Shown in pieces: positions 8,372-31,070 of a stretch of DNA of 58,105 bases. The stretch lies in the NCBI GenBank assembly GCA_022565695.1, contig JAIUME010000014.1, positions 1 to 58,105 of the forward strand. Direction: 5' to 3'. Source of the stretch: Alcanivorax sp. GTDB taxonomy: Bacteria; Pseudomonadota; Gammaproteobacteria; Pseudomonadales; Alcanivoracaceae. Within the stretch, counting starts at the first letter, position 1; each line of letters begins with the position of its first letter. The notes under the pieces were generated by a model, which searched no databases, was not told the origin of the DNA, and was given only the letters and a program-made list of their open reading frames with translations. Both the position numbers and the translations under genes were made by a program.

Positions 8372-9346
8372 ATGGGACAACCGACCACCGATAAAATTCA
8401 GCTCAGCGCCCGGGCTGCCCCGGAACACGCGGGCCAGCGCCTGGACCAGGTGGCTGCCGAGCTGTTTGACCGCTTTTCCCGCTCCCGCCTCCAGCACTGG
8501 ATCAAGGCCGGCACCCTTACCGTGAATGGCAAACAGGCCAAGCCCAAGGACAAGCTGATGGGCAGCGAAGAGCTGGTCATCGATGCTGAACTGGAGATCG
8601 AGGTAGACGATGCGCCCCAGGCCATCGATCTGCCGGTGATCTACCAGGACGACGATCTGCTGGTGATCAACAAGCCCGCCGGACTGGTGGTGCATCCCGC
8701 CGCCGGCCACCATGACGGCACGCTGCTCAATGGCCTGCTGCATCAGGACCCGGGCCTCAACAACCTGCCCCGGGCGGGCATCGTGCACCGTCTGGACCGG
8801 GATACCACCGGGCTGATGGTGGTGGCCCGCACCCTGGAGGCGCACACCTCGCTGGTGGCCCAGCTCCAGGACAAGTCCCTGTACCGGGAATACGAAGCGG
8901 TGGCCGTCGGTGTGATGACCAGCGGCGGCATGGTGGATGCGCCCATTGGCCGCCACCCCCAGGACCGCAAGCGGCAGGCGGTGGTAGAAGGCGGCAAACC
9001 CGCCGTCACGCACTACCGCGTGATCAAGCGCTACCGGGGCCACACCCACATCCGCGTGCAGCTGGAAACCGGGCGGACGCACCAGATCCGCGTGCACATG
9101 ACCCATATCCGTTATCCGCTGGTGGGTGACCCGGTCTACAGCGGCCGCCTGAAACTGCCCGCTGGCGCGACCCCGGCACTGCGTGAGGCCATTCAGGGCT
9201 TCCGCCGCCAGGCCCTGCACGCTCGCAAGCTGGGCCTGATCCATCCCACCTCCGGTGAATACATGGAATTCGAGTCGCCGTTGCCGGCGGACTTCGAGGC
9301 GCTGCTGGCCAGCCTGCGCGCTGACGTGGCCGAGCAGGCCGACTAG
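8372..9346 (+). CDS. rluD: 23S rRNA pseudouridine synthase RluD
   Basis: This enzyme makes pseudouridines 1911, 1915 and 1917 in helix 69 of 23S rRNA. An N-terminal S4 RNA-binding domain (about residues 20-80, GQRLDQVAAELFDRFSRSRL) is followed by the catalytic core. The catalytic motif is GIVHRLDRDTTGLMVVA, with the active Asp, and the C-terminal part has LETGRTHQIRVHM. The ATG at 8372 follows a GAGG ribosome site. The length of 324 residues is typical. It overlaps or abuts pgeF without a gap. Confidence 0.95.
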   Translation: MGQPTTDKIQLSARAAPEHAGQRLDQVAAELFDRFSRSRLQHWIKAGTLTVNGKQAKPKDKLMGSEELVIDAELEIEVDDAPQAIDLPVIYQDDDLLVINKPAGLVVHPAAGHHDGTLLNGLLHQDPGLNNLPRAGIVHRLDRDTTGLMVVARTLEAHTSLVAQLQDKSLYREYEAVAVGVMTSGGMVDAPIGRHPQDRKRQAVVEGGKPAVTHYRVIKRYRGHTHIRVQLETGRTHQIRVHMTHIRYPLVGDPVYSGRLKLPAGATPALREAIQGFRRQALHARKLGLIHPTSGEYMEFESPLPADFEALLASLRADVAEQAD

Positions 9347-10105
9347 ATGAAAGACGTCGCGCAACTTCCCGCGCTGAGCGACTGGCTGATCCCTGACTGG
9401 CAGCCGCATCCCCGGGTGCGCGCCTGTGTGACCACGCGCGCCGGCACGCTGTCGCCGCCGCCCTGGCGTGGGTTCAATCTCGGCGCCAACTGCGGCGACG
9501 AGCCGGAGCGGGTCGAGCAGGCCCGGCGCCATGTGCACCGGCTGTTGGCCACCCCGCATCCGCCGACCTGGCTGCGCCAGGTGCATGGCGTGGTACTGGT
9601 GCCTGCGGGGCAGGCCGATGCGGAAGCGGACGGCGTCTGGACCGACAAGGCCGGTTGGCCCTGCGCCGTGCTCACCGCAGACTGCCTGCCGGTGCTGCTG
9701 GCTCGCCGTGATGGCCAGGCGGTGGCGGCGGTGCATGCGGGCTGGCGCGGTTTGCAGGCGGGCATCATCGAACGGGCCGTGGCGCAGCTTGCCCCCGGCG
9801 GCGAAGCGCTATCGGCCTGGCTGGGCCCGGCCATCTCCCAGCCCTGCTACCAGGTCGGGCGGGATGTGTACGAGGCGTTTGTCGGGAGCGATCCCGCTGC
9901 CAGCGCCGGGTTCGAACCGGACGGCACGCCAGAGCACTGGCATCTGAGCCTGACCGGACTGGCTGGCCAGCGTCTTGAGCGTGCTGGCGTAACAGATGTC
10001 AGCGGCGGCGAGCAATGCACGGCCTCCGACCCGTCCCGCTTCTACTCTTACCGCTACGAAGGCCAGACCGGCCGCTTTGCCAGCCTGATCTGGCTCGACG
10101 CCTGA
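9347..10105 (+). CDS. pgeF: PgeF/YfiH family multicopper-like hydrolase
   Basis: This is the conserved partner downstream of rluD (252 residues). Family motifs are visible: LRQVHGVVLVPA, a CAVLTADCLPVLLA Cys segment, and VHAGWRGLQAGI with the metal-binding His. The family has been described as laccase-like polyphenol oxidase, purine nucleoside phosphorylase/adenosine deaminase (LACC1 relatives), and as a peptidoglycan editing factor (PgeF) in E. coli. It starts immediately after the rluD stop codon, so the two are translationally coupled. Which activity matters here cannot be told from sequence. Confidence 0.92.
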   Translation: MKDVAQLPALSDWLIPDWQPHPRVRACVTTRAGTLSPPPWRGFNLGANCGDEPERVEQARRHVHRLLATPHPPTWLRQVHGVVLVPAGQADAEADGVWTDKAGWPCAVLTADCLPVLLARRDGQAVAAVHAGWRGLQAGIIERAVAQLAPGGEALSAWLGPAISQPCYQVGRDVYEAFVGSDPAASAGFEPDGTPEHWHLSLTGLAGQRLERAGVTDVSGGEQCTASDPSRFYSYRYEGQTGRFASLIWLDA

Positions 10106-19959: not shown

Positions 19960-22152
19960 ATGGAAATCAAGGTCAACTATCTCGACAACCTCCGTCTGGA
20001 GGCAAAGTTTGACGACTTTACCGTCATCTCCGACCAGCCCATCCGCTACAAGGGAGATGGCTCCGCCCCCGGGCCGTTCGATTACTTCCTGGCATCCTCG
20101 GCCCTGTGTGCCGCCTATTTCGTCAAGGTGTACTGCAAGACCCGGGACATCCCTACCGAGAATATCCGCCTGTCGCAGAACAACATCATTGACCCGGAGA
20201 ACCGCTACAAGCAGATCTTCCGCATCCAGGTAGAACTGCCCGAGGATATCTCCGACAAGGACCGGCAGGGCATCCTGCGCGCCATCGACCGCTGCACCGT
20301 CAAGAAGGTGGTGCAGGCCAATCCCGAATTCCAGATCGAGACCGTCGAGAACATTGACGAAGATGCCCAGGCTCTGCTGATGGCCGTGCCCGATGAGGCC
20401 GGCAGCACCTGGATTGAAGGCAAGGACCTGCCGCTGGAGCAGACCATCGCCAACATGAGCGGCATTCTCGCCGGCCTGGGCATGAAGATCGAGATCGCCT
20501 CCTGGCGCAATATCGTGCCCCATGTGTGGTCCCTGCATATCCGCGATGCCGCCTCACCCATGTGCTTCACCAACGGCAAGGGCGCCACCAAGGAAAGCGC
20601 CCTGTGCTCTGCGCTGGGCGAATTTATCGAGCGGTTGAGCTGCAACTTCTTCTATAACGACCAGTTCTTCGGCGAAGAGATTGCCAACAGCGCCTTCGTG
20701 CACTATCCCAATGAAAAGTGGTTCCAGCCTGGCCCGGACGACGCCTTGCCCGATGGCATTCTGGATGAGCACTGCCGGGCGATCTACGACCCGGAAGGCG
20801 AACTACTTGGCTCGCACCTGATCGACACCAACTCCGGCAAGACGGCACGCGGCATCGTCGCGCTGCCGTTCGTGCGCCAGTCCGACGGCGAGACGGTGTA
20901 CTTCCCCTCCAACCTGATCGAGAACCTCTACCTGAGTAACGGCATGAGCGCCGGCAACACCCTGCAGGAAGCCCAGGTGCAGTGCCTCTCGGAAATCTTC
21001 GAGCGCGCCGTCAAGCGCGAGATCATCGAACAGGAAATCATACTGCCGGATGTGCCCGACACCGTGCTCGCCCAGTACCCGGCCATCGTCGAAGGCATCA
21101 AGGCATTGGAAGCACAGGGCTTCCCCGTGCTGGTGAAGGACGCCTCCCTGGGTGGCCAGTACCCGGTAATGTGCGTCACCCTGATGAACCCCCGCACTGG
21201 CGGTGTCTTTGCCTCCTTCGGCGCGCACCCCAGCTTTGAGGTGGCGCTGGAGCGCAGCCTTACCGAACTGCTGCAGGGCCGCAGTTTCGAGGGCCTGAAC
21301 GACCTGATGCCCCCGACCTTCAACAGCTTGGCCCTGACCGAGCCCAACAACTTCGTCGAGCACTTTATCGATTCCTCGGGGCTGATTTCCTGGCGTTTCT
21401 TCAGCAGCAAGGCGGATGTCGAGTTTGTGCATTGGGACTTCTCGAACGGCGCGGGCAGCAACGACGAAGAAGCTGCCACCCTGTTCGGCATCCTTCAGGG
21501 CATGGAGCTGGAAGCCTATATGGCCGTGCACGAAGACCTGGGCGCCCCCGTATGCCGCATCCTGGTGCCCGGCTACTCCGAGGTGTACCCCGTGGAAGAC
21601 CTGGTGTGGGACAACACCAACAAGGCCCTGCTGTTCCGCGAAGACATCCTCAACCTGCATGCCTTGAGCGACAAACAACTGACCGCCCTGCTCGAACGCC
21701 TGGAAGAAACCCAGATCGACGAGCACATGGACATCATCACCCTGATCGGCATCGAGTTCGACGAGAACACCGTGTGGGGCCAGCTGACCATCCTCGAACT
21801 GAAGTTGCTGATCCACCTGGCCCTGGGGGCGCATGAAGACGCCCTTGAGTATGTGGAAATGTTCCTGCAGTACAACGACAACACCGTGGAACGCGGCCGC
21901 TTTTATCAGGCCATGCAGGCTGTGCTCACCATCCTGCTGGATGATGAGCTGGAACTGGATGATTACCTCTATAACCTGACCCGCATGTTCGGCCAGACCA
22001 CCATGGATGCCGTGGTGGGCTCCACCCAGGGCACGGTGCGCTTCCACGGCCTCACGCCCACCAATATGCAACTTGATGGCCTGGAGAAACACCAGCGCCT
22101 GATCGAGAGCTACAAAAAGCTGCATGCGCATCGCGCTGCCCGGGCAGGCTAG
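19960..22152 (+). CDS. OsmC-YcaO fusion protein
   Basis: This 730-residue protein joins an N-terminal OsmC-like domain (about residues 1-140, with PGPFDYFLASSALCAAYFVK and a Cys) to a YcaO domain (about 165-560) and a helical, TPR-like C-terminal extension (about 570-725). YcaO ATP-binding features are visible in GKGATKESALCSALGEFIER and in the QCLSEIFERAVKREIIE helix. YcaO proteins activate amide backbones with ATP. E. coli YcaO contributes to beta-methylthiolation of ribosomal protein S12. Fused OsmC forms are widespread in marine gammaproteobacteria. The start at 19960 matches the MEIKVNYLDN strand. A strong GC hairpin follows the stop. Confidence 0.9.
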   Translation: MEIKVNYLDNLRLEAKFDDFTVISDQPIRYKGDGSAPGPFDYFLASSALCAAYFVKVYCKTRDIPTENIRLSQNNIIDPENRYKQIFRIQVELPEDISDKDRQGILRAIDRCTVKKVVQANPEFQIETVENIDEDAQALLMAVPDEAGSTWIEGKDLPLEQTIANMSGILAGLGMKIEIASWRNIVPHVWSLHIRDAASPMCFTNGKGATKESALCSALGEFIERLSCNFFYNDQFFGEEIANSAFVHYPNEKWFQPGPDDALPDGILDEHCRAIYDPEGELLGSHLIDTNSGKTARGIVALPFVRQSDGETVYFPSNLIENLYLSNGMSAGNTLQEAQVQCLSEIFERAVKREIIEQEIILPDVPDTVLAQYPAIVEGIKALEAQGFPVLVKDASLGGQYPVMCVTLMNPRTGGVFASFGAHPSFEVALERSLTELLQGRSFEGLNDLMPPTFNSLALTEPNNFVEHFIDSSGLISWRFFSSKADVEFVHWDFSNGAGSNDEEAATLFGILQGMELEAYMAVHEDLGAPVCRILVPGYSEVYPVEDLVWDNTNKALLFREDILNLHALSDKQLTALLERLEETQIDEHMDIITLIGIEFDENTVWGQLTILELKLLIHLALGAHEDALEYVEMFLQYNDNTVERGRFYQAMQAVLTILLDDELELDDYLYNLTRMFGQTTMDAVVGSTQGTVRFHGLTPTNMQLDGLEKHQRLIESYKKLHAHRAARAG

Positions 22153-22171
22153 CGCTGCCTTGTGCCACAAG

Positions 22172-22210
22172 TGCCCGCCCCGGGGTTGCCATCATCCCGG
22201 GGGCGGGGCA
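22172..22210 (+). terminator. GC-rich hairpin after ycaO, possible terminator
   Basis: TGCCCGCCCCGGGG at 22172-22185 pairs with CCCGGGGGCGGGGCA at 22196-22210 over a short loop, 20 bases after the ycaO-type stop. It lacks a T tract, so termination would be weak or factor-dependent. From here to 22554 no gene is recognised apart from a 20-codon open frame. Confidence 0.5.
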
Positions 22211-22434
22211 GTATCGAGGCAGGGTTAATGGGCGGCGGACAAGCACCGGAGAAAAAATAACGAAAGTAAGCAGATGCTCGCCGAGGCACGGACAGTGCGC
22301 GGAATGTCGGGCATGGCGGTAGCGTGCCGGGTTTAGTGCGGACACTGATAATGGCGAACGCGAATTGCATTGCGCACCTGATCACGCAACCGTGGTTGCC
22401 TGTCGCTGTCCTTGCGCATGGCGATACTCTTATG

Positions 22435-22450
22435 CTGTCCATGCGGACAG
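22435..22450. promoter_or_regulatory. LexA-like palindrome CTGT-N8-ACAG
   Basis: CTGTCCATGCGGACAG is a perfect 16-base palindrome that fits the CTGT-N8-ACAG form of LexA operators in gammaproteobacteria. It lies 10 bases before the ATG of a 20-codon open frame and about 105 bases before the first attC-like site. Integron integrase promoters are often LexA-controlled, but no integrase gene is present. The GC-rich centre is unlike strong LexA boxes, so this may be another operator. Confidence 0.4.
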
Positions 22451-22460
22451 TATTATTGAA

Positions 22461-22523
22461 ATGGAAAAAGAAGAATTCAAGCGAATGGGTCGGGAACTCG
22501 GCGGGGCGCTGGTAAGTCTTTGA
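22461..22523 (+). pseudogene. 20-codon open frame, possible stub of a disrupted gene
   Basis: An ATG at 22461 directs MEKEEFKRMGRELGGALVSL and stop. The sequence looks like a real helical protein N-terminus rather than random translation, and a palindromic operator-like site lies just before it. It stops shortly before the AT-rich left end of the cassette array. It could be the 5' end of a gene truncated when the array was inserted or rearranged, or a genuine small protein. I cannot assign a family. Confidence 0.3.
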
Positions 22524-22554
22524 TTTTTATTATCTATTCATCAATATATAAATT

Positions 22555-22622
22555 TGCTAACTGTGATAGGCTGCCGGCGTTGTTATTGGATATATGCGCC
22601 GGCGTCCTAATGCCTGTTATGT
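22555..22622 (+). other. attC-like site 0 (left end of array)
   Basis: R'' TGCTAAC (22555-22561) and R' GTTATGT (22616-22622) flank an imperfect inverted repeat whose core GCCGGCG pairs with CGCCGGC around a 17-base AT-rich loop. The hairpin favours attC over attI. No matching cassette start (GTTAGCA) is seen upstream, so the cassette it closed has been lost. An attI site remains an alternative. Confidence 0.6.
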
Positions 22623-22637
22623 GTTGGTAGGGAGCGC

Positions 22638-22874
22638 ATGAGATTTCTACTGGGTATATCCGCGCTAGTGAGCTTTATCATCGGCGGAGCGGCGATGTAC
22701 ATGGCATGGGATCACAATCCTCAGTGTGAGATCCACTGTGAAGGTGCGGCCCACTGGGCATATTGGACTTTTATTGGAGCAATTTGGGCTGTCTCGGTAT
22801 TTTTGCTTTGCTCTGGCGTGATTTGTGGAGTGGCGAAGATTCGTGCTATTGGAAAAGTTGGTGATGACACATAA
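22638..22874 (+). CDS. cassette 1: small two-helix membrane protein
   Basis: This 78-residue protein has two predicted membrane helices (about residues 3-23 and 43-67) joined by a loop with two cysteines (CEIHCEG). The family is unknown. An AGGGAGC ribosome site precedes the ATG. The TAA stop lies inside the R'' box of attC site 1, a compact arrangement typical of cassettes. The cassette starts at GTTATGT (22616) and its R'' is ACATAAC, a perfect complement. Confidence 0.65.
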   Translation: MRFLLGISALVSFIIGGAAMYMAWDHNPQCEIHCEGAAHWAYWTFIGAIWAVSVFLLCSGVICGVAKIRAIGKVGDDT

Positions 22875-22942
22875 CAAGCAGCGGCAGCAAGGCACCTTCG
22901 GTGCCGGACGCGCTTCGCACGCCGCTGCGCAGGTCGTTAGCC
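22869..22942 (+). other. attC site 1
   Basis: R'' ACATAAC (22869-22875) and R' GTTAGCC (22936-22942). The 74-base site contains the paired arms GCAGCGGC and GCCGCTGC, plus a nested stem-loop around GGCACCTTCGGTGCC. It closes cassette 1. Confidence 0.9.
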
Positions 22943-22960
22943 AAATGGAACGATTTAGTA

Positions 22961-23332
22961 ATGTGCAAAACTCAATTCACGGCCAAAGACGGAACCATCG
23001 CAAACATCGTGATCGACCAAGATGGTACAGTCATATCGGTGTGGATCGGAGGTGCGGAAACAGGAAGCATTGAGCTGACGATGGGCGATGGTCCCTATCA
23101 CTTCCATATAACACACATGTTCCTCAACAAATGCAAAGGTAAGGGAATTGGGCGCGCTTGTTTGAGGTTTCATAAGGAATGTTTTGCAGCACCACTGACT
23201 GCGTCGTCGCCGTTCGAACCAGGACAGAAGTTGGACGGCAGTCATTTGACAGGGGACGGGCTGCCATCTATCTCGAAAATGCGAGACGAGGGCATAGTGT
23301 GTCGCCACTCAGACGAGTATGACCAGGGCTAA
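22961..23332 (+). CDS. cassette 2: hypothetical protein, weakly GNAT-like
   Basis: This 123-residue protein has a beta-rich N-terminal half followed by CKGKGIGRACLRFHKECF (about residues 61-78). That segment resembles the acetyl-CoA loop and helix of GNAT acetyltransferases (R/Q-x-x-G-x-G/A). The resemblance is weak and the rest does not confirm it. The ATG at 22961 is the first clear start after attC 1. A second ATG at 22946 is out of frame. The stop lies in the R'' box of attC 2. Confidence 0.55.
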   Translation: MCKTQFTAKDGTIANIVIDQDGTVISVWIGGAETGSIELTMGDGPYHFHITHMFLNKCKGKGIGRACLRFHKECFAAPLTASSPFEPGQKLDGSHLTGDGLPSISKMRDEGIVCRHSDEYDQG

Positions 23333-23385
23333 CAAGGTCATCCAGCCGACGCTCGTACCTCGCGCGGCTGATGACGGCGTTATGA
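23327..23385 (+). other. attC site 2
   Basis: R'' GGCTAAC (23327-23333) and R' GTTATGA (23379-23385). The arms GTCATCCAGCCG and CGGCTGATGAC pair around GCTCGTACCTCGC. Cassette 2 begins GTTAGCC, the exact complement of this R''. Confidence 0.9.
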
Positions 23386-23408
23386 GCCAATCAACATCGA
23401 GAGTATGA

Positions 23409-23852
23409 ATGGACGATAGAGTCAAAAAATTAGATACGCCAGAAAAGTGCGCGATATTTGCCAAGAACTGTATTGAGCGCGGTCGAGAGGATTTGGCTCA
23501 AGAGGCAAAAGAGCGTGCTCTACAGCTCCGAGCAGAAGCGCACGGCGCAGAGACGGAAGCAGAACGTGAAGCTCTTGAAGCTGTATATGCCTACGAAGAG
23601 GTCTTGAGCACAAGAAATGGAAAGAGAACACGCGCTGGACGTACTTGGCAAATGATTGAGCGTCATGGAATTATCGGCGCGGTGGAGCGTGCGGTAAACC
23701 GCCCAACGGAAACGCAGGGATATACCTCACTTGTTGAAATGGGCCTCGAAGACTATGCCTTTGAAAATGTAATCCTTCGTTATCCCAATCTATTCAGCGA
23801 GCAAGCAGTAAATATTTCCAAGGCGCGCATCGATCAGTGGCGTAGCTCATAA
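23409..23852 (+). CDS. cassette 3: hypothetical protein of integron cassettes
   Basis: This soluble, mostly helical protein has 147 residues. The first 70 residues are highly charged (KNCIERGREDLAQEAKERAL) and look like helical repeats. A middle segment NGKRTRAGRTWQMIERHGII resembles a basic helix-turn-helix-like surface. The C-terminal part (ENVILRYPNLFSEQAVNIS) is conserved-looking. I recall similar sequences in environmental integron cassettes but no function. The start ATG 23409 follows GAGAGT. The stop overlaps the R'' box of attC 3. Confidence 0.7.
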   Translation: MDDRVKKLDTPEKCAIFAKNCIERGREDLAQEAKERALQLRAEAHGAETEAEREALEAVYAYEEVLSTRNGKRTRAGRTWQMIERHGIIGAVERAVNRPTETQGYTSLVEMGLEDYAFENVILRYPNLFSEQAVNISKARIDQWRSS

Positions 23853-23930
23853 CAAGGCCAGGCACGGCGACGGCTTTTTCGTTGCGGCTTCGCCTACACT
23901 ACAAAGCCGCGCGTGCTGGCGGCGTTAGGT
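23847..23930 (+). other. attC site 3
   Basis: R'' TCATAAC (23847-23853) and R' GTTAGGT (23924-23930), 84 bases. The inverted arms include GCCAGGCACG with CGTGCTGGC, and CGGCTTT with AAAGCCG. Cassette 3 begins GTTATGA, the exact complement of this R''. Confidence 0.9.
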
Positions 23931-23950
23931 CTACATTCAAGGCGGCCTGA

Positions 23951-24301
23951 ATGAGTGAGACGAAAAAGCGGGAAATCTTCTTCGAGCAGCTTAAAGAGGC
24001 CCGCGACGGCTACTTCGTCGAGTACAACCCGCCGGGTGGAGAAGTAAGGTTTGCGTGGCTCACGCTTGTTTTTCACGAAGGCGCGACGCCTGACTTCGCA
24101 AAGGCGGCTATGGAACATGAGGCCGCATTATGGACGCTGCGATATCCAGTGCCGGTTATGGTTTTCGCGTGCGACGAAAAAGGCGATACGGTAGAGATCA
24201 GCGAGGATTGGGGTCGGAACAACCTGATTGCCTGGCGGTGTTCTGATGGCAGTCTAGATATGTACTGGGAGTATCTCAAAGACGAGGTCATACAGATGTA
24301 G
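23951..24301 (+). CDS. cassette 4, gene 1: hypothetical protein
   Basis: This 116-residue acidic soluble protein is Trp- and Tyr-rich. Conserved-looking segments are REIFFEQLKEARDGYFVEYN, PVMVFACDEKGD and DMYWEYLKDEV. I do not recognise a family. It starts 20 bases after the R' box of attC 3 and is followed 20 bases later by a membrane protein in the same cassette. The pair could act together, but no motif shows how. Confidence 0.65.
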   Translation: MSETKKREIFFEQLKEARDGYFVEYNPPGGEVRFAWLTLVFHEGATPDFAKAAMEHEAALWTLRYPVPVMVFACDEKGDTVEISEDWGRNNLIAWRCSDGSLDMYWEYLKDEVIQM

Positions 24302-24321
24302 CGCTTTCGGCCGAGTATCTC

Positions 24322-24735
24322 TTGAAGACCTATGAGGGAGTGCCCTACAGGACTGCGGAGGAAGTAAGGCAACAAGCCGGCACCAATTGGAAGAGCCGTT
24401 CTAAGGAGCTTCGTATCGGTTTTGCAATTATCTTCTGCTGGGCAGTAGCAGTCCCGGCAGCCATTGCGTTGCTGGGATGGACAAGCCCGTTGGTTGGCTT
24501 CATGGTCATGGTCTACGCATTGGGCACGGCCGTCCGTCAAGCAGGCCTGATGCTTGGCAGGTTCAAGCCTTTGCCACATGAGAGTGAAACGCGGCAGAAG
24601 GAGCAACTAATGCGTCATTACTATTATCACTGTGAGCGAAATCCAGATGCATTCAGGCGGCTTGTCGTTGAAAATTTTGAGCAGGATCAGCGAGAAGCCG
24701 AGGAGCTAACAAGCGCATCGAGCGGACGCGGCTAA
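24322..24735 (+). CDS. cassette 4, gene 2: hypothetical two-helix membrane protein
   Basis: This 137-residue protein has two adjacent membrane helices (about residues 34-52 and 57-75) between a basic N-terminal segment and a charged cytoplasmic C-terminal helix. The frame has no ATG before the helices, so translation likely starts with TTG at 24322. The stop lies well inside attC 4, so the last ten residues or so (SASSGRG) are encoded by the recombination site and would change if the cassette moved. Confidence 0.5.
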   Translation: MKTYEGVPYRTAEEVRQQAGTNWKSRSKELRIGFAIIFCWAVAVPAAIALLGWTSPLVGFMVMVYALGTAVRQAGLMLGRFKPLPHESETRQKEQLMRHYYYHCERNPDAFRRLVVENFEQDQREAEELTSASSGRG

Positions 24736-24764
24736 AGCCGCGCCGCTCATGCTTGGCGTTAGCA
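24704..24764 (+). other. attC site 4
   Basis: R'' AGCTAAC (24704-24710) and R' GTTAGCA (24758-24764). Arms AAGCGCATCGAGCGG and CCGCTCATGCTT pair around CGCGGCTAAAGCCGCG, itself a stem-loop. Cassette 4 begins GTTAGGT, one mismatch from the complement of this R'', the only imperfect match in the array. Confidence 0.9.
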
Positions 24765-24805
24765 TTTTTAGACTTAAACCTATGGGTAATCTTAAAGGTC
24801 AACAT

Positions 24806-25777
24806 ATGAGCAATAAAGAAAGTTTTGGAAGTGTGAGCCTAGTTCGTCAGGGAGAGCATAGGTTTTACTCATTCACTATGCCCAGTGATATCCTTGCGGA
24901 AACGTGTTACGTGATCAACCGCGATGAAGATCCCATAGAAGGATTTCAGCGAGAGCTGGATAAAAAAAGAGCGATGGAAATTGCAAATTATATTGATTCA
25001 GGACTTGGGACTATTCCTAGCTCAATAGTTTTATCAGCGCAGGAAGATTGCGATTTTACATACGATTCAAAAACAAAATCAGTGAGCTTTAAAAACATAA
25101 ATAAGGCATTCCTTATCATTGATGGGCAGCATCGAGTGTATGGATTCAAGCTCGCGAACACGGCACTAAGAATTCCTGTTGTAGTATACGAGAACTTGTC
25201 AAAAAGAGATGAAACAAGGCTGTTTATTGATATAAATTCTAAGCAAAAGGGGGTGCGAACAGAACTTCTTCTAGATATCAAGAAGATGGCTGAGTATGAG
25301 AATGATGCTGAGCAATACCTAAGAGAGATATTCGATACATTCTTAACAGAGAATGACAGCGCTCTCTACAATAGGCTTTCAGCTTCGAAAAGAGAAAAGG
25401 GAAAGATCACTAGATCTGTTTTCAATACGGCGATTAAGCCTTTGGTTAAAGTTTTTGGAAACAAGACGCCAACGGAAATATATGAGATATACAACGCATA
25501 CCTAATTGCTTTCAATGAAGGGATATTGGTCCCCCATGGCATTCAAGACCAGGCTTTCAACACGACTGTATTCAAGGCCATTGCCGGATTCTTCCCTATT
25601 ATAACCGCAAGAGTTAAAGATCGGTTTGGTGCCATTTATACAGTTGATAACTACCATGAATTTACAGAGATTATTGGTCAGAGAATCAAGCCTATAAAGC
25701 TAGAAAATCCGACTAATGCATATAAGCCTATTGTTGATCATCTTGAAGAGTCATTAAAGCAGGAGTTTACTCTTTAA
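24806..25777 (+). CDS. cassette 5, gene 1: DGQHR-domain (DndB-like) protein
   Basis: This 323-residue protein carries the hallmark IIDGQHRVYGF (about residues 104-114) and the second conserved segment RLFIDINSKQKGV (about 142-154), both diagnostic of DGQHR/DndB-type proteins, which are ParB-fold relatives. DndB regulates and takes part in DNA phosphorothioation modification. No dndACDE genes are present here, so a full Dnd system is not encoded. An N-terminal strand region (FGSVSLVRQGEHRFYSF) also fits. I chose ATG 24806, which follows AAAGG by 7 bases; ATG 24782 is in frame. The stop is directly followed by the ATG of the HEPN-like gene. The base composition is much more A+T-rich than the core genome. 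Confidence 0.8.
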   Translation: MSNKESFGSVSLVRQGEHRFYSFTMPSDILAETCYVINRDEDPIEGFQRELDKKRAMEIANYIDSGLGTIPSSIVLSAQEDCDFTYDSKTKSVSFKNINKAFLIIDGQHRVYGFKLANTALRIPVVVYENLSKRDETRLFIDINSKQKGVRTELLLDIKKMAEYENDAEQYLREIFDTFLTENDSALYNRLSASKREKGKITRSVFNTAIKPLVKVFGNKTPTEIYEIYNAYLIAFNEGILVPHGIQDQAFNTTVFKAIAGFFPIITARVKDRFGAIYTVDNYHEFTEIIGQRIKPIKLENPTNAYKPIVDHLEESLKQEFTL

Positions 25778-26743
25778 ATGACGCCTGAGATTAAGCTTAT
25801 TCACCAGTTATCACATAACGCAATATTCGAAGTATCTTCGAAAAATGAGACTGACCTAAAAGCTTGGGTTGCGAATGGTCAGTATCTGATGGATCAGGCG
25901 TTAGTGCCAAATCCACAAGGAAGGGCTAGCGAATTCAAACTCCGATTTCAAGACGCTGACAAACTAAATATTGCCTTAGCGAATGATTGTAACCGTTTTT
26001 CACAAGCCGCGATTGAGTCTATGTGGTGCATTGGAAAGGTGGAAAAGTTACCAAGAAGCACTGCCTGGGCTACTGTTCAAATGTATTATTCTGCATTTTT
26101 CGCCGTGCATGCGTTATTGAGAATTTTTGGCAGAGCTTGCACGCAATTGGATAGCAGCCATGTTGAGGCAGTATATCAAGTGGCAAGCGCTACCAATATG
26201 GATGGCAGTTCATCCTGCATTGAAAATGGGTTTTACATCTCGGTGATAGATAATAACGGTATTGAATACAAAAAATTAAAAGATTCACATGCAGATACTT
26301 GGCTGTCGTTCTCGAATTTGTTGACTTGGATAATTAATAACATTGAGAGCACTACAGGCTTGGGGAAACACAAGTCCGATGCTATCGATCTTGTTTCAAA
26401 ACTCAAACAGGCGATGTCACAGTCCGGAGCAGCTAAAGGTAATTGGCCTTCGCAAGTAAGGAATAGGGTTAACTATCAACACAGTCATGGTGTTTGGTAT
26501 CCGTACAAAAATGCATTGCATGATCACGAGGCTATACTAAGAAACTCAGAATGGTTAAAGCAACCACAGACCTTTGATCTAAATCCAAATACCGGAGAAA
26601 TTCAATCACTATTCAACATTAGTAATTCGATACTATCGCTGATGTACCAGCTAATGAAGTACGGCTATGACCGTGCAGGTAAAATTTCGCTGCCATTAGC
26701 GAATGGAACATTTCGACTTATAAATCAAATCCGAGCAGCATGA
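25778..26743 (+). CDS. cassette 5, gene 2: HEPN-like protein
   Basis: This 321-residue protein has a helix ATVQMYYSAFFAVHALLRIF (about residues 98-117), typical of the first core helix of HEPN domains. Near residues 228-235 it has RNRVNYQH, which contains the R-x4-6-H signature of HEPN ribonucleases. Many HEPN proteins are toxins or defence effectors. The domain call is by eye and the fold outside these parts is unknown. The ATG abuts the stop of the DGQHR gene with no gap, so both are made from one message by coupled translation. A regulator/sensor plus effector module is a reasonable inference. Confidence 0.65.
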   Translation: MTPEIKLIHQLSHNAIFEVSSKNETDLKAWVANGQYLMDQALVPNPQGRASEFKLRFQDADKLNIALANDCNRFSQAAIESMWCIGKVEKLPRSTAWATVQMYYSAFFAVHALLRIFGRACTQLDSSHVEAVYQVASATNMDGSSSCIENGFYISVIDNNGIEYKKLKDSHADTWLSFSNLLTWIINNIESTTGLGKHKSDAIDLVSKLKQAMSQSGAAKGNWPSQVRNRVNYQHSHGVWYPYKNALHDHEAILRNSEWLKQPQTFDLNPNTGEIQSLFNISNSILSLMYQLMKYGYDRAGKISLPLANGTFRLINQIRAA

Positions 26744-26791
26744 TGCTAACAAAGCAATGCACGCGACAAGCGCGTGATAGCGGCGTTAGCG
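26744..26791 (+). other. attC site 5
   Basis: R'' TGCTAAC (26744-26750) and R' GTTAGCG (26785-26791), only 48 bases, the shortest in the array. Arms GCACGCG and CGCGTGATAGC pair around ACAAG. Cassette 5 begins GTTAGCA, the exact complement of this R''. Confidence 0.85.
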
Positions 26792-26807
26792 ATCAAGGAA
26801 GAGTTTG

Positions 26808-27278
26808 ATGCAAGTTTCGTGTTTTATCCTTGAGGAGTCAGCTAAAACCATAATCGGACTGGCTACTACCGGCCTTTCCGGGGGGCTAATATGGCTTGCG
26901 CTTCTCCGCTATCGGAGCCATACGATCCGAGTTCTCTTAAAGAATTCAACTAGAGTGTTTATCTTCTACTATCGGGGAGATCACGATACATCCCACAAGA
27001 AGCGCTTAGCTTTCAATGCCGATGGCTCGATCAACGACGGAAAGCACCCTAACGAGTGCTACTGGGATGTCGCCTGGGGACTGCTAGTGATCTACACAAA
27101 CGGTAGGAAGGTATATAGCAAGTTCAGGTGGGATCAGAAAGTTGGAAGACTCATCCATACAAATAATCCAAACCTCCCGTCCGTGATGGGCCAGTGTATA
27201 GTGCCCCTGTTCATTCCTGCTGGACAGAATCGAGAGATATACTTGCAGAGCCTAGGAGTTGATGGCAATGGACGCTAA
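26808..27278 (+). CDS. cassette 6: hypothetical single-pass membrane protein
   Basis: This 156-residue protein has one N-terminal membrane helix (about residues 14-34, TIIGLATTGLSGGLIWLALL). A soluble beta-rich domain follows (VFIFYYRGDHDTSHKKRLAF, ECYWDVAWGLLVIYTNG). The pattern suggests a membrane-anchored sensor or effector domain, but I recognise no family. The ATG at 26808 follows AGGAAGAG. The stop TAA overlaps the R'' box of attC 6. Confidence 0.6.
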   Translation: MQVSCFILEESAKTIIGLATTGLSGGLIWLALLRYRSHTIRVLLKNSTRVFIFYYRGDHDTSHKKRLAFNADGSINDGKHPNECYWDVAWGLLVIYTNGRKVYSKFRWDQKVGRLIHTNNPNLPSVMGQCIVPLFIPAGQNREIYLQSLGVDGNGR

Positions 27279-27377
27279 CAATCAGCTGCACCGGACAAAT
27301 TTCCGCTGTCATCTTTTGTGCATAGAGCCGCACAAATGCCGCCATCAAAAATTTACCCGGTGGGCCGGGCGTTATAT
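27273..27377 (+). other. attC site 6
   Basis: R'' CGCTAAC (27273-27279) and R' GTTATAT (27371-27377), 105 bases, the longest in the array. Outer arms include CACCGG with CCGGTG and a long AT-rich central hairpin around TTTGTGCATAGAGCCGCACAAA. Cassette 6 begins GTTAGCG, the exact complement of this R''. Confidence 0.85.
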
Positions 27378-27395
27378 GCAAAGAGAGTTCATCTC

Positions 27396-28061
27396 ATGAA
27401 TCAAGACAAGTACAGCTCTAAGTTTGAAACAAATGACAAAGAGTCAAAATTGCTGAAAGCTGCTTTTGACCAAGTTTCAGACATACGAAAATTTGAGGTT
27501 GAGCTTTACTGGAAAAGAGCAACTTATTTTTGGGCATTAATAGCGGTAGCTTTTGCTGGTTACTTCTCGATTCTGGCTTCTGAACATATGCCCAGTAAGT
27601 TTTTTCTGTCACTTATAGTTTCTTGTATTGGTTTTGTATTTACCTTTGCTTGGTTTCTTTCAAGTAGGGGGAGCAAGTACTGGCAGGAGAACTGGGAGAA
27701 TCACCTTGACCTCCTAGAAGACAATGTAACTGGTCCCTTATACAAAACCTTACTCGAACGGCCTGGCCACATAAATCTGGCGGAAAAACTTATAACTGGT
27801 CCTTTGAGTGTATCCGTTTCTAAAATAAACCAGTGGGTTGGTATTTTCATCGTTTTTGCGTGGTGTTTGTTGGTCGGGTTCTCTGCTTATAACTCTTTAG
27901 ATCCGCTTGGGTTATCAAAGGATCAATGGCTAAATATTGGACTGCATGCGTTTGTTATAGCCATCACCTTGGTGGCCTGCTTTATGATGTTTGGTTTCGG
28001 AAAGACACACAAAGACAAGCATTCACCCAAAGTTGTAGAGCGAGAAACGAGAATTAAGTAA
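27396..28061 (+). CDS. cassette 7: four-helix membrane protein
   Basis: This 221-residue protein has four predicted membrane helices, in two pairs (about residues 45-63 and 70-90; 148-168 and 185-205). A charged cytoplasmic N-terminus carries DIRKFEVELYWKRATYFWA at the first membrane entry, and a basic tail follows the last helix. The segment between the pairs holds KYWQENWENHLDLLED and may be a helical soluble domain. Membrane proteins of this layout occur in defence and integron contexts, but I cannot name a family. The true start is ATG 27396; the frame extends upstream into attC 6. An AAAGAGAG site precedes the start. Confidence 0.7.
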   Translation: MNQDKYSSKFETNDKESKLLKAAFDQVSDIRKFEVELYWKRATYFWALIAVAFAGYFSILASEHMPSKFFLSLIVSCIGFVFTFAWFLSSRGSKYWQENWENHLDLLEDNVTGPLYKTLLERPGHINLAEKLITGPLSVSVSKINQWVGIFIVFAWCLLVGFSAYNSLDPLGLSKDQWLNIGLHAFVIAITLVACFMMFGFGKTHKDKHSPKVVERETRIK

Positions 28062-28063
28062 GC

Positions 28064-28124
28064 ATATAACAATCGCGTCAATTAGGACGCTCGCAAGCTC
28101 TCGCCTATTACGCGGGCGTTAATC
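28064..28124 (+). other. attC site 7
   Basis: R'' ATATAAC (28064-28070) and R' GTTAATC (28118-28124), 61 bases. Arms CGCGT with ACGCG and AATTAGGACGC with GCGGG-type partners form an imperfect hairpin. Cassette 7 begins GTTATAT, the exact complement of this R''; the match extends to GTTATATGC with GCATATAAC. Confidence 0.9.
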
Positions 28125-28144
28125 GTTTCAAAGGTGGAGGATGT

Positions 28145-28441
28145 ATGCGAGATTTTGGCTCAATGAAACAGTCTTATGAGGCAATGGGTTACGACGAGAG
28201 GCTGGCCTTTCTTTCTGGGTTAAAAGTTATCCTGGAAGCAGAAATGCAAAAGATTGGTCAGAATTATGATGAAACGGATTCTAGGGACGTCCGTATTAGG
28301 TTATTGAAAAAGACTTCAGAGCTACAAGAGGCCATACATGCCGTAAAGGACAGTTCGAAGGAGTCTAGCAAAGAGCCTGCGGTGGTAGATGATGGTTTCT
28401 GGGGAACTCTGGAACAGTATCTTATCTCCGGAGTCGATTAA
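28145..28441 (+). CDS. cassette 8: small helical hypothetical protein
   Basis: This 98-residue soluble protein is mostly helical, with heptad-like spacing in residues 20-75 (LAFLSGLKVILEAEMQKIGQ; RIRLLKKTSELQEAIHAVKD). It has a flexible Ser/Lys-rich linker and an aromatic C-terminal segment (FWGTLEQYLISGV). The family is unknown. A GGTGGAGG ribosome site lies just before the ATG. Its stop overlaps the R'' box of attC 8. Confidence 0.6.
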   Translation: MRDFGSMKQSYEAMGYDERLAFLSGLKVILEAEMQKIGQNYDETDSRDVRIRLLKKTSELQEAIHAVKDSSKESSKEPAVVDDGFWGTLEQYLISGVD

Positions 28442-28489
28442 CAAGGCAAGGCAGCGGGCGCCTTCGGCCCTCTGCTCGCGACGTTATGC
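28436..28489 (+). other. attC site 8
   Basis: R'' GATTAAC (28436-28442) and R' GTTATGC (28483-28489), 54 bases. Arms AGGCAGCGGGC and GCCCTCTGCT-type sequence pair around GCCTTCGGC. Cassette 8 begins GTTAATC, the exact complement of this R''. Confidence 0.88.
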
Positions 28490-28522
28490 GCGCAGCCATC
28501 TGCGTCAACCAAAGAGAAAAAA

Positions 28523-28834
28523 ATGACAGAACCTAACGAAACAGAAATTAAAGTCAGTGACGCTACCAACGAAAGCAATGATTTTTCATACGATGATTAT
28601 TTTCATTCGAAAGAAGCTTTTTTGATTTTCGTACTATTGTATGTTGATGGTGAAAAAAGAGCCGACTTCCTTGGTATTAAAGAAGAAATGTATGAGTCAA
28701 GAGCCAAGGCAAAAGAATGGCGAAATTCTTTGGTTAAAGTACTTCATTCTGACCGTTGCAAGCACCTATCTGCGGATGAGGCCACAGCGAAAGTCAACGA
28801 AATCTATTCAAGGATGAAAAAGCATGCCGAATGA
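28523..28834 (+). CDS. cassette 9, gene 1: small J-domain-like protein
   Basis: This 103-residue acidic protein has a C-terminal half with WRNSLVKVLHSDRCKH (about residues 66-81), then DEATAKVNEIYSRMKKH. This mirrors the layout of J domains (helix II, HPD, helix III with a K-x-N-E-x-Y core), with HSD in place of HPD. The resemblance is my inference and DnaK stimulation is not implied. It overlaps the following HNH-nuclease-like gene by 11 bases, so the two proteins are probably made together and may bind each other. Confidence 0.65.
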   Translation: MTEPNETEIKVSDATNESNDFSYDDYFHSKEAFLIFVLLYVDGEKRADFLGIKEEMYESRAKAKEWRNSLVKVLHSDRCKHLSADEATAKVNEIYSRMKKHAE

Positions 28835-29525
28835 GGAAGAGAAGAAGAATAGCACTAGCAAGCTTCCTGTAACTTTAAAACCGGTTGACTTTGAATACAA
28901 AAAACCAGAAAGAAGAAACGAATTAACTGAGCCAAAAAAATACGACAAGATCGATTCGAAAATTGGTGAACTAGTAAAGCTCGGCACTAATGGCGTAATT
29001 TACGTAGATGAAGATACTTTTTCTACAATATTTCAAACCACTTGGCCGAAAGCTGCTTTTATATTTGAAAACCAGATTCCAGATGCAGACAAGAAAAGTT
29101 TTGATGGTAAAAATTACGCTCATAGCTCGGCAGTGGTTGGGTTGACCGAAAAGAAATCACAAGAATTCAGAGATGCCGAAAAGCAAGCCTTGCTTCAATA
29201 TGCTCGGGACTCGCTCATTAGTGTATCAGACTCACCTGAGGCGCAGGATATGAGAAGAAAGGTTGATTCATTCACATCCAAAATCCTTCCAAAACTCCGC
29301 GACGAACGAGGCGTAAATACTGATGAAGTAACTGGTGAAGATAGAAGAAGAGGTTTTGCATTTCATCATGTTAATCCAAAGGAATTGCATACAGACCCAG
29401 AGGACGTATTAGATCCTACTAAGGGGCGGAATTTGAATCCTGAAACTCATGCGGACGTACACAGAAATAACATCAACAATGAGGAGCAGTTTGAGAAGTA
29501 TCAGACTGAAAATAAGCCGAAGTAA
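28824..29525 (+). CDS. cassette 9, gene 2: HNH-type nuclease-like protein
   Basis: This 233-residue protein has a charged, Lys-rich N-terminus and a C-terminal HNH-like region. FAFHHVNPKELHTDP (His 181 and 182) is followed by GRNLNPETHADVHR (Asn 203, His 209, His 213). The spacing is that of HNH/endonuclease VII-like toxins of polymorphic and defence systems, where paired His, Asn and His bind metal. No secretion signal is seen. It starts inside the preceding J-like gene, with GAGGAAGAG-type purines just after its own ATG and GGATG upstream. Confidence 0.68.
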   Translation: MPNEEEKKNSTSKLPVTLKPVDFEYKKPERRNELTEPKKYDKIDSKIGELVKLGTNGVIYVDEDTFSTIFQTTWPKAAFIFENQIPDADKKSFDGKNYAHSSAVVGLTEKKSQEFRDAEKQALLQYARDSLISVSDSPEAQDMRRKVDSFTSKILPKLRDERGVNTDEVTGEDRRRGFAFHHVNPKELHTDPEDVLDPTKGRNLNPETHADVHRNNINNEEQFEKYQTENKPK

Positions 29526-29528
29526 AGC

Positions 29529-29598
29529 GCATAACAATTTGCTGCACGCGGAAAAATACTCGCTGCGCTCGCATTTTCCGGTGAGCAAGGCGTTATAC
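29529..29598 (+). other. attC site 9
   Basis: R'' GCATAAC (29529-29535) and R' GTTATAC (29592-29598), 70 bases. Arms TTTGCT and AGCAAG, and CGGAAAA with TTTTCCG, pair around a central CTCGCTGCGCTCG. Cassette 9 begins GTTATGC, the exact complement of this R''. Confidence 0.9.
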
Positions 29599-29610
29599 GC
29601 AAGGAAGGTC

Positions 29611-29895
29611 ATGAGCATCATTCGATAAATTGCAGAGTCATGGGGTTGGGTAGATATCGATCCCATCCAGGTGGTCGGAGTGGGGGAAGTCCACTCCCCG
29701 TGGGTGACCCTTTTCATGCCAGCTCTTGTGTTGATTGTGGGGCTTGCATGGCCGCGCAAAAGGCGCCGCGATGCCTGGTCGATCTCGCTGGGTGCGGGCT
29801 TTCTGGTTCTGAGCTTCGTGCCCATCCTTGTGTCGGGGTATCTGCCGACATGGAATATTGGGGCCTGGATATTACCCCTGACAAGGTGTCGCATT
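29611..29895 (+). pseudogene. truncated cassette 10: broken Tdi1/DUF1851-like gene plus membrane-protein fragment
   Basis: After attC 9 the frame from ATG 29611 reads MSIIR, stop, then IAESWGWVDIDPIQVVG. This resembles the N-terminus of DUF1851/Tdi1-type immunity proteins, which usually continue with a GENxFGN motif. Here the similarity ends after VVG (about 29679). The same frame then carries an unrelated hydrophobic stretch (VTLFMPALVLIVGLAW and AGFLVLSFVPILVSGYLPTW) that runs into the next gene. So both a nonsense codon and a deletion junction mark this as a decayed cassette. No closing attC (it would read GTATAAC) follows. The Tdi1 call is from memory of the family. Confidence 0.5.
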
Positions 29896-30459
29896 ATGGG
29901 ACTCTTGACCTTTAGCATCAACGTCACCCTGGACGGCTGCGTCGATCATCAGGAAGGAATCGCCGACGACGAGACACATGCTTTCTTCACCGGACTGATG
30001 GACGAGAGCGGGGCGATGTTGTGGGGCCGTATCACCTACGAGATGATGGAGAGCTACTGGCCGGCGGTAGCCAGTGGCGAGGAGGAGGCGACGCCAGCGA
30101 TGCGCGAGTGGGCGGTTAAACTGGAAGCAAAGCCGAAGTACGTCGTATCGTCGACGCGAAAGAACTTCCCATGGACCAACAGCCACCACATTGCTGGCGA
30201 TCTGGGCGCGGGCGTGCAGAGGCTGAAAGACGCCACCCCGGCGGGCATACTCCTCGGTAGCGGCAAGCTCGCGACCGAACTGGACAGGCTGGATCTGATC
30301 GACGAGTACAAATTCCTCGTCCATCCCAGGGTCGCCGGCCACGGCCCGACGCTGTACCAGAGTGGGCTGCCCGGCGCGCGGCGGCTCGAGCTTGTTTCGG
30401 CGCAGCCGCTCCGCTGCGGCGCGGTCGCCATGCACTATCGGCGCGCGCGTGACGGGTAG
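29896..30459 (+). CDS. dihydrofolate reductase-like (RibD C-terminal) protein
   Basis: This 187-residue protein of the DHFR/RibD_C superfamily starts MGLLTFSINVTLDGCVDH and has AMLWGRITYEMMESYW, ILLGSGKLATELDRLDLIDE and the strand FLVHPRVAGHGPTL. Such single-domain proteins bind NADPH; most have no known substrate. The ATG at 29896 fits the conserved first strand; the frame extends upstream into a hydrophobic fragment that is unrelated. It is the first intact gene right of the truncated cassette array. A different-subtype relative lies at 35433. Confidence 0.85.
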   Translation: MGLLTFSINVTLDGCVDHQEGIADDETHAFFTGLMDESGAMLWGRITYEMMESYWPAVASGEEEATPAMREWAVKLEAKPKYVVSSTRKNFPWTNSHHIAGDLGAGVQRLKDATPAGILLGSGKLATELDRLDLIDEYKFLVHPRVAGHGPTLYQSGLPGARRLELVSAQPLRCGAVAMHYRRARDG

Positions 30460-30497
30460 CCCGTGGCTATCGCTTCAAATTTACACAGGAGGTAAAG

Positions 30498-31070
30498 GTG
30501 AGCGAAAAAGGATACCTGAAGCCACCGGAAGAGATTGACATGGCACAGGCCGAGAGATCGATTCGCGTGGCGGGTCTCATCAGTGTGTTGGCGCTGGCGG
30601 GCGCTGTTCCGGCCGCCTATTTTATGTTGCCTGCATTATTTTCCTTTCCTGAAGAACTGCCGGAACGGCTTGCCTTCGCGGCTCAAGCGAGCATATTCGT
30701 GCTGCTTTGCGCGGTTGTCGCCATAGGAATGGTTTCGACTGCCCGCAGGTTTTCACCAGAAGATATTGGGGGCTCTGCCGCTCGGGCGCCTAGTAAGCGT
30801 ATCGCCATTTATGTGGCATTCCTTCAAAATACCTTGGAGCAGTCAGTAATAGCCGTAGGCCTTTACTTTGCCTTGGCGGTGCTTCTGAGCGGCCCATGGC
30901 TTTCCCTCATAGTGGTCGGCGTAATCTTCTTCTTGATTGGGCGGGTGCTCTTTTTTCGGGGCTATTCCAGAGGTGTCGAAGGTAGAGCTCTGGGTATGAC
31001 ATTGACTATGATGCCTACGGCATTTGGCTACCTGTTGGTACTGGTGCTTATGGGTGCCAAATGGATTTGA
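30498..31070 (+). CDS. MAPEG-family membrane protein
   Basis: This 190-residue protein has four membrane helices (about residues 25-48, 62-84, 108-148 as a pair, and 162-186). The segment RVLFFRGYSRGVEGRALGMT followed by a final helix matches the MAPEG family of membrane glutathione/eicosanoid enzymes. In bacteria the function is usually unknown. It starts with GTG 30498 after an AGGAGGTAA ribosome site. It lies in a cluster of small accessory genes on the same strand. Confidence 0.78.
   Translation: MSEKGYLKPPEEIDMAQAERSIRVAGLISVLALAGAVPAAYFMLPALFSFPEELPERLAFAAQASIFVLLCAVVAIGMVSTARRFSPEDIGGSAARAPSKRIAIYVAFLQNTLEQSVIAVGLYFALAVLLSGPWLSLIVVGVIFFLIGRVLFFRGYSRGVEGRALGMTLTMMPTAFGYLLVLVLMGAKWI

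Follow-up and report, generated by a model that had tools for sequence, protein, structure and literature searches.

The subject of this report is a pair of adjoining genes carried by a stretch of 58,105 nucleotides from an Alcanivorax sp. (contig JAIUME010000014.1), called the window below. The first gene encodes a DGQHR-domain protein and the second a HEPN-like protein, organized as follows.

24806..25777, + strand: gene 1, DGQHR-domain protein of 323 amino acids (ParB/Srx fold, relative of DndB and DpdB); start codon ATG at 24806, stop codon TAA at 25775-25777
25121..25135, + strand: DGQHR motif of gene 1, residues 106-110; five of five residues identical in 20/20 paired homologues
25223..25252, + strand: FIDINSKQKG motif of gene 1, residues 140-149; F140 and N144 in 20/20, D142 and I143 in 19/20 paired homologues
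25761..25765, + strand: AGGAG, within the end of gene 1, a possible ribosome-binding site of gene 2 judged by its sequence
25778..26743, + strand: gene 2, HEPN-like protein of 321 amino acids, putative ribonuclease effector; start codon ATG at 25778, stop codon TGA at 26741-26743

Both genes are read from the + strand and the TAA of gene 1 abuts the ATG of gene 2; the AGGAG inside the end of gene 1 could possibly provide a translational coupling of gene 2. The mechanically listed open reading frame (ORF) of gene 1 begins at 24749, within the upstream attC site, and the start at 24806 was chosen as it matches the relatives. A sigma-70-like promoter was sought ahead of gene 1 in the cassette described below and none was found. 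Re-reading the sequence bore out the coordinates, the frames, the abutting stop and start codons and the motifs reported in an earlier note on this DNA (the original prediction). The ratio of nonsynonymous to synonymous substitution rates (dN/dS) lies between 0.03 and 0.14 in both genes, for those 4 out of 10 pairs of loci where dS was computable, and database homologues of gene 2 number 125 at E<=0.001. On account of these low ratios and of these homologues, the pair is more than a chance arrangement of reading frames.

The identity of gene 1 is clear from its profile matches. It scores 157.6 bits against the NCBIfam DGQHR family TIGR03187 (cut-off 58.85) and 60.5 bits against the Pfam family DndB (PF14072, cut-off 29.1). 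The DGQHR motif, found within IIDGQHR (residues 104-110), includes a GxxR as in the phosphate motif of ParB-fold proteins, and gene 1 qualifies as a ParB/Srx-fold protein carrying this motif. The predicted DGQHR, DndB-type ParB-fold identity is thereby supported. Membership of the Dnd or Dpd systems is nevertheless rejected, because gene 1 scores 28.9 bits as DndB and 58.1 bits as DpdB, far below the equivalog cut-offs of 328 and 300 bits, and because the dndC and dndD profiles, the only dnd genes searched genome-wide, have no match in the whole genome (3.53 Mb, 99.92% complete). This agrees, as far as these two genes go, with the earlier statement that the locus is not a normal Dnd system.

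The linkage of the two genes is conserved. Starting from gene 2, 18 loci were collected (13 loci, two plasmid records and three genomes besides the source genome), of which L012 repeats the region of L006 and further ones may duplicate one another. A DGQHR gene lies directly upstream of gene 2 in 15 of the 18. The remaining three comprise L003 and L012, which start at gene 2 because the contig ends there, and L027, a true orphan with no DGQHR gene within 5 kb on each side and with a neighbour that appears, from our own reading of its ORF, to be IstB-like. Gene 2 occurs in four of 398 genomes drawn evenly from the phylum, all of them with a DGQHR gene upstream, and among 28 relatives surveyed it was found in the Alcanivorax source genome only; its distribution is therefore sporadic. 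The reverse linkage is weak: 30 DGQHR matches in 24 genomes yielded 4 (the present one included) with gene 2 and 1 with a weak relative of it. The original prediction had proposed a survey of this adjacency, and the two genes do co-occur.

The two genes have also travelled together. Their pairwise distances over 20 pairs, hand-picked from the sequences retrieved, correlate with an r of 0.94, a value reached by none of 2000 shuffles (best 0.58); this correlation between sequence distances shows co-inheritance, not contact. In addition, 49 of 120 listed gene 2 entries share their contig size with one of 120 listed DGQHR entries, against a mean of 1.8 and a maximum of 5 in a shifted control. Gene 1 is better conserved than gene 2 in 19/19 comparisons with the window (88% versus 66% at L006, for example), and its dN is lower than that of gene 2 by 2.6-3.1 times in 8 distant comparisons and by 1.3-1.4 times in 2 close ones. 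At two loci, L007 (a metagenome-assembled genome, 3322-4292) and L010 (4971-5962), gene 1 is frameshifted and gene 2 open, a sequencing error being possible.

Further evidence comes from the residues conserved in gene 2, which were examined in two sets. The close set holds 101 of 120 listed homologues, after omission of 19 fragments or near-duplicates (at least one of which, P0016, has H235 replaced); the diverse set consists of 40 hand-picked proteins with a median pairwise identity of 0.20, including 26 of a group of 28 proteins.

26084..26122, + strand: YYSAFFAVHALLR helix of gene 2, residues 103-115; Y103 in 20/20 and R115 in 17/20 partners
26288..26302, + strand: HADTW motif of gene 2 (H171, W175); both in 101/101 close rows, H in 40/40 and W in 39/40 of the diverse set
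26450..26476, + strand: SQVRNRVNY motif of gene 2 (S225, R228, N229, Y233); all four in 101/101 close rows, R, N and Y in 40/40 and S in 38/40 of the diverse set

Six positions, H171, W175, S225, R228, N229 and Y233, are thus invariant across the close rows, and Y103 joins H171, R228, N229 and Y233 in all 40 diverse ones. Other positions of the same region vary in the close rows: at 232, 90 rows have N and 11 have H, and His is kept at 235 in 93 rows and Arg at 230 in 13. In the diverse rows the position of H235 holds H in just 7 of 40. The usual Rx4-6H motif of HEPN proteins is consequently not preserved, R228 and N229 being invariant and H235 not. The original prediction had taken R230 and H235 as the catalytic pair, within the stretch RNRVNYQH (residues 228-235). 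The Arg of this motif is in fact R228, and the pair itself is rejected on conservation; R230A/H235A mutants would miss the conserved residues, since invariance sits at H171, R228, N229 and Y233. By analogy, H171 may be an alternative catalytic residue, in the role of the N-terminal His of AbiV and AF0298, HEPN proteins of a type in which the motif His is lost and another His, N-terminal of the motif, is conserved (PMC3710099).

These residues were condensed post hoc, from the same sequences, into the signature H-x3-W ... S-x2-R-N-x2-[NQH]-Y. It is present in 20/20 partners and in 0 of 20000 shuffles for each of three partners. Applied to 117 ORFs of 13 loci, it retrieved only the 13 partner ORFs, and of 117 ORFs that neighbour DGQHR genes, 4 partner ORFs carry it; the weak relative at L044 lacks it. 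A family profile, run against ten sequences, recognizes remote partners on a Providencia plasmid (E 1e-9), in a Pf phage (6e-9) and on a Burkholderia plasmid (4e-5). The match to the partner of an Acinetobacter phage (L026) is not significant (E 0.19), so that its kinship rests on signature and position.

The structural model of gene 2 is confident (predicted local distance difference test score of 96), and its top matches, weak ones, are to the HEPN-ROQ region of Roquin. Matches to G-protein-coupled receptors and rhodopsins were read as helical-bundle noise, and Foldseek searches against the PDB and viral predictions returned nothing below 0.001. Gene 2 belongs to no family of Pfam, NCBIfam or PADLOC. 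A Pfam scan of 40 close relatives revealed no HEPN family, the same scan of 40 diverse relatives gave one sub-cut-off match to PF05168 (E 0.0012), and hhalign comparisons with members of PF05168 and PF18735 were negative. Two of 120 listed homologues are named UPF0332 by the Joint Genome Institute. A PADLOC match of gene 2 to DpdK (E 0.02) and a CARF match in one relative (E 0.0016) were dismissed as chance, the one PHROGs match of gene 2 had an E of 0.077, and the Pfam scans found no nuclease family in gene 2 or its relatives. In view of the model and its weak Roquin match, a HEPN fold is likely, not proven. The HEPN assignment of the original prediction is favoured by this match and the sub-threshold PF05168 match, the profile-profile comparison being negative; in keeping with its idea of an undescribed module, gene 2 has no family in the defence library beyond a match at chance level. 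Elsewhere in the Alcanivorax genome (G000:C1:238927-239532), a separate gene matches the RiboL-PSP-type HEPN family PF18735 with 55.7 bits (cut-off 28.4).

The pair is carried by a gene cassette, as had been predicted. Its boundaries and the array in which it lies are listed below, the cut points of the cassette having been set by eye from the GTTAG cores.

22870..29596, + strand: array of nine attC-like sites, an integrase-less cassette cluster delimited with an ad hoc attC finder; sites at 22870-22940, 23328-23383, 23848-23928, 24705-24762, 26745-26789, 27274-27375, 28065-28122, 28437-28487 and 29530-29596
24705..24762, - strand: attC of the preceding cassette, whose bottom strand folds; DNA fold of -20.4 kcal/mol, z -4.0, equalled by 0/200 shuffles
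24759..26785, + strand: integron gene cassette of 2,027 bp between two G/TT recombination points, with both genes and their own attC
26745..26789, - strand: attC of the cassette of the pair; fold of -10.4 kcal/mol, z -2.0, 9/200 shuffles folding equally well

The finder gave 10 matches in the window, all within 22870-29596, and the one at 27791-27915 was discarded because it lies inside an ORF. On 20 single-nucleotide shuffles of 22101-30500 it gave 0-4 matches, against the 10 real ones, and on 13 related loci 0-3 each, several of them within genes. For five sites the bottom strand was folded as single-stranded DNA (z -4.0, -2.0, -3.0, -1.4 and -2.1); three of these are modest in energy, including the attC of the pair itself, and are identified by their position and core sequences. 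A site nearly identical to the attC of the pair also lies 3' of the copy in O. smirnovii. The pair stands out by its G+C content of 39.9%, compared with 61.2% in the window left of 22000 and 59.9% right of 30500. The sites bracket the pair within the run of nine, as expected of an integron gene cassette. The array is called integrase-less since the genome has no integron integrase over the cut-off: TIGR02249 scores below it at two loci, which are the only PF00589 matches of the genome and were read as XerC/XerD-like. A neighbouring cassette (27396-28061, ORF listed as 27318-28061) encodes a member of the 8xMP octameric membrane protein family (PF24838, 133.5 bits). Another one holds two overlapping ORFs (28523-28834 and 28824-29525), the second of which has no Pfam family and a His-rich end that recalls HNH-type nucleases.

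The same pair is found on other mobile elements. It forms a cassette according to the attC finder in O. smirnovii (L002) and Shewanella (L005), and by eye, the finder having missed it, in a Halomonas metagenome-assembled genome (L003). In genome G385 the pair occupies the first cassette position next to an open IntI gene (TIGR02249 at 441.4 bits, for a cut-off of 265), from which an ISL3 transposase separates it; this locus, together with the array described above, substantiates the mobile cassette of the original prediction. L004 has what looks, by its sequence, like a decayed attC site, and no attC could be recognised at the remaining related loci. In phages, the order is repressor, DGQHR gene and partner in the inovirus PfAC19 (a Pf phage), and cI, N6/N4-type methylase, DGQHR gene and partner in the Acinetobacter phage MD-2021a. 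The pair sits beside an S24-type repressor on a viral contig that also carries a P2-type gpA (L013) and upstream of TerL on another viral contig (L063). On plasmid pTR3_4 an operon combines a DNA methyltransferase, a NotI-family endonuclease, the DGQHR gene and its partner, and on a Providencia plasmid the pair lies between umuD and umuC. A MobA/MobL gene adjoins the pair at L009, and a C5 methylase lies about 1 kb from it at L014. A general linkage to restriction-modification (R-M) genes was rejected, as it concerns few loci only. The position next to a repressor is the classical site of lysogenic-conversion genes such as lambda rexAB, and the resemblance of the repressor-proximal pairs to this arrangement favours a role in defence. 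In Neptunomonas (L006), a gene with a SocA/Panacea antitoxin domain lies about 1.5 kb downstream of the pair (8503-9378).

DGQHR proteins are also joined to different partners. Plasmid pNL1 (L128, 2293-4602) encodes a 769-residue protein in which a DGQHR domain is followed by a C-terminal, sub-threshold Swt1-type HEPN stretch (PF18731, E 8e-4, 20.1 bits for a cut-off of 27.5), with the motif RQYTAH read by eye. To judge from its position, from which the locus tag was deduced, the protein probably corresponds to Saro_3948, a fusion already named in 2013. At L041 (814-3099), a DGQHR domain follows a sub-threshold NERD/HSDR_N-like N-terminus and adjoins a D12 class methylase. These varied partners make a DGQHR sensor with a swappable effector the simplest reading. 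The order methylase, hypothetical ORF and DGQHR gene was observed at two other loci (L036, 1-2655; L025, 2062-5051), both without a HEPN-like partner.

The DGQHR identity of gene 1, its conserved linkage to gene 2, the invariant residues and the mobile contexts, all of them observed, can be brought together in a functional proposal, to which we give an even chance: the pair would constitute a mobile two-gene module of the abortive-infection type, in which a DGQHR ParB-fold sensor or regulator controls a HEPN-like ribonuclease with an alternative active site. The proposal is put forward because of the linkage, the phage- and defence-type settings, the H/R/N/Y set that is invariant at an identity of 0.20 and the Roquin HEPN-ROQ region as top structural match. 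Gene 1 would bind a nucleoside triphosphate (NTP) and respond to a phage signal or to the state of DNA (foreign, modified or unmodified DNA, or a nucleotide imbalance); by contact or through a DNA-bound complex, it would then release gene 2 onto RNA and the infection would be stopped. The active site of gene 2 would comprise H171, R228, N229 and Y233 in place of the usual R...H pair. Precedents exist for parts of this scheme: DndI is a ParB-fold NTPase that senses the state of DNA and drives a nuclease (PMC11662687), and binding of ATP and GTP is described for a DndB-like protein (PMC12704722). A complex model of the two proteins as a fused chain gave a predicted template modelling score of 0.54 and no confident interface. 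More tentatively, the pair may represent a distinct anti-phage system, an NTP switch of the ParB fold gating a new family of HEPN-like ribonucleases (H171 with R228/N229/Y233) and spread as a two-gene unit over integrons, filamentous and tailed phages, small plasmids and R-M operons.

The abutting of two genes on mobile elements is also what a classical toxin-antitoxin (addiction) module would look like. Gene 2 would then be a constitutively active toxin of the HEPN fold, which is known among such toxins, and gene 1 an antitoxin and DndB-like autorepressor stabilising cassette arrays, DndB being reported as an ATP-dependent repressor (PMC12704722). This explanation appears unlikely, because an active toxin should not survive where gene 1 is broken or missing, yet gene 2 is open beside the frameshifted gene 1 of L007 and L010, a possible sequencing error notwithstanding, and stands as an orphan at L027. 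Furthermore, typical antitoxins are not known to evolve slower than their partner, whereas gene 1 does. Gene 1 is more likely an activator than a simple antitoxin. Quite unlikely in our view is an accessory role in DNA restriction, in which the pair would read DNA modification and the partner would cut or mark DNA with R-M enzymes. The operon with the methyltransferase and the NotI-family endonuclease, the methylases directly upstream in the Acinetobacter phage and near the pair at L014, the D12 methylases adjoining other DGQHR genes, one of them fused to a sub-threshold NERD stretch, and the Dnd/Dpd kinship of gene 1 all point that way. No methylase, however, was recognised at the other loci with listed neighbours, which were inspected partly by eye rather than by a systematic scan, and the scans of gene 2 and its relatives found no nuclease family. 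Finally, gene 2 could bind RNA as a HEPN-type scaffold, in the manner of Roquin, which would make the pair a regulator of lysogeny or gene expression that does not kill. The RNA-binding HEPN-ROQ protein found as top structural match, the proximity of phage repressors and the absence of a conserved canonical HEPN His fit such a regulator. It is nonetheless improbable, since the invariant polar set H/R/N/Y looks catalytic in view of the low overall identity and the integron and R-M contexts offer no lysogeny to regulate.

If the abortive-infection proposal is correct, DGQHR proteins have a role outside Dnd and Dpd as a portable sensor, driven by nucleotides and connectable to a ribonuclease. A two-gene candidate would be added to the defence stock of integrons, and an accessory pair would be recognized beside phage repressors. 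The exact residues for the mechanism are named: H171, R228, N229 and Y233 in gene 2 and the DGQHR motif in gene 1. The module had been predicted as undescribed, and this stands for the unlabelled family of gene 2 and not for the general arrangement, as a paper of 2013 already lists operons and fusions of ParB with HEPN and connects them with the guarding of R-M systems (Anantharaman et al., PMC3710099). The examples given there include the Saro_3948-type ParB-HEPN fusion, an operon of the MAE_28990 HEPN with a ParB nuclease and a DNA methylase, and a RiboL-PSP-HEPN operon with ParB. HEPN genes have also been reported in Dnd neighbourhoods (PMC10853773). DGQHR together with HEPN was not found in a literature search that did not cover the primary integron-defence papers of 2025 (Darracq, Kieffer, Getz), and the DefensePredictor paper (PMC13092281) mentions neither DGQHR, DndB nor ParB. 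The novelty lies in the unlabelled partner family, in the alternative set of residues that it conserves and in its near-constant pairing with DGQHR across integrons, phages and plasmids.

Among known systems, the modules of 2013 likewise couple a ParB-fold protein to a HEPN or HEPN-like protein, sometimes with a methylase, but they keep or mostly keep Rx4-6H (PMC3710099), whereas the family of gene 2 has an invariant upstream His, is unnamed and is encoded by a separate, integron-borne gene of 321 codons. DndB and DpdB share the DGQHR/ParB-fold domain with gene 1, which differs by its scores far below their equivalog cut-offs, by a genome without dndC and dndD and by a dedicated HEPN-like partner. 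DndI and SspE, in which a ParB-fold DUF262 NTPase is fused to an HNH nickase, have in common with the proposed module the ParB-fold NTPase, the sensing of DNA state and the control of a nuclease (PMC11662687); theirs is a single, DNA-nicking and phosphorothioation-dependent chain, while two chains and a HEPN-like partner are found here. The HEPN proteins AbiV and AF0298 resemble gene 2 in the loss of the motif His and in the other, N-terminal His proposed as alternative active site, but Pfam scans indicate no sequence relationship, and the relevant passages of the source mention no DGQHR partner for them (PMC3710099). The AIPR/AbiU1 proteins were linked to the N-terminal domain of DndB, whereby a single abortive-infection family is tied both to a domain related to DndB and to HEPN (Makarova et al. 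2012, PMC3506569); Pfam scans of either gene gave no AIPR match. Lastly, integrons have come to be regarded as reservoirs of defence genes, and, like the anti-phage cassettes known from chromosomal and from mobile integrons, the pair is a cassette-borne candidate for defence (review PMC12409362).
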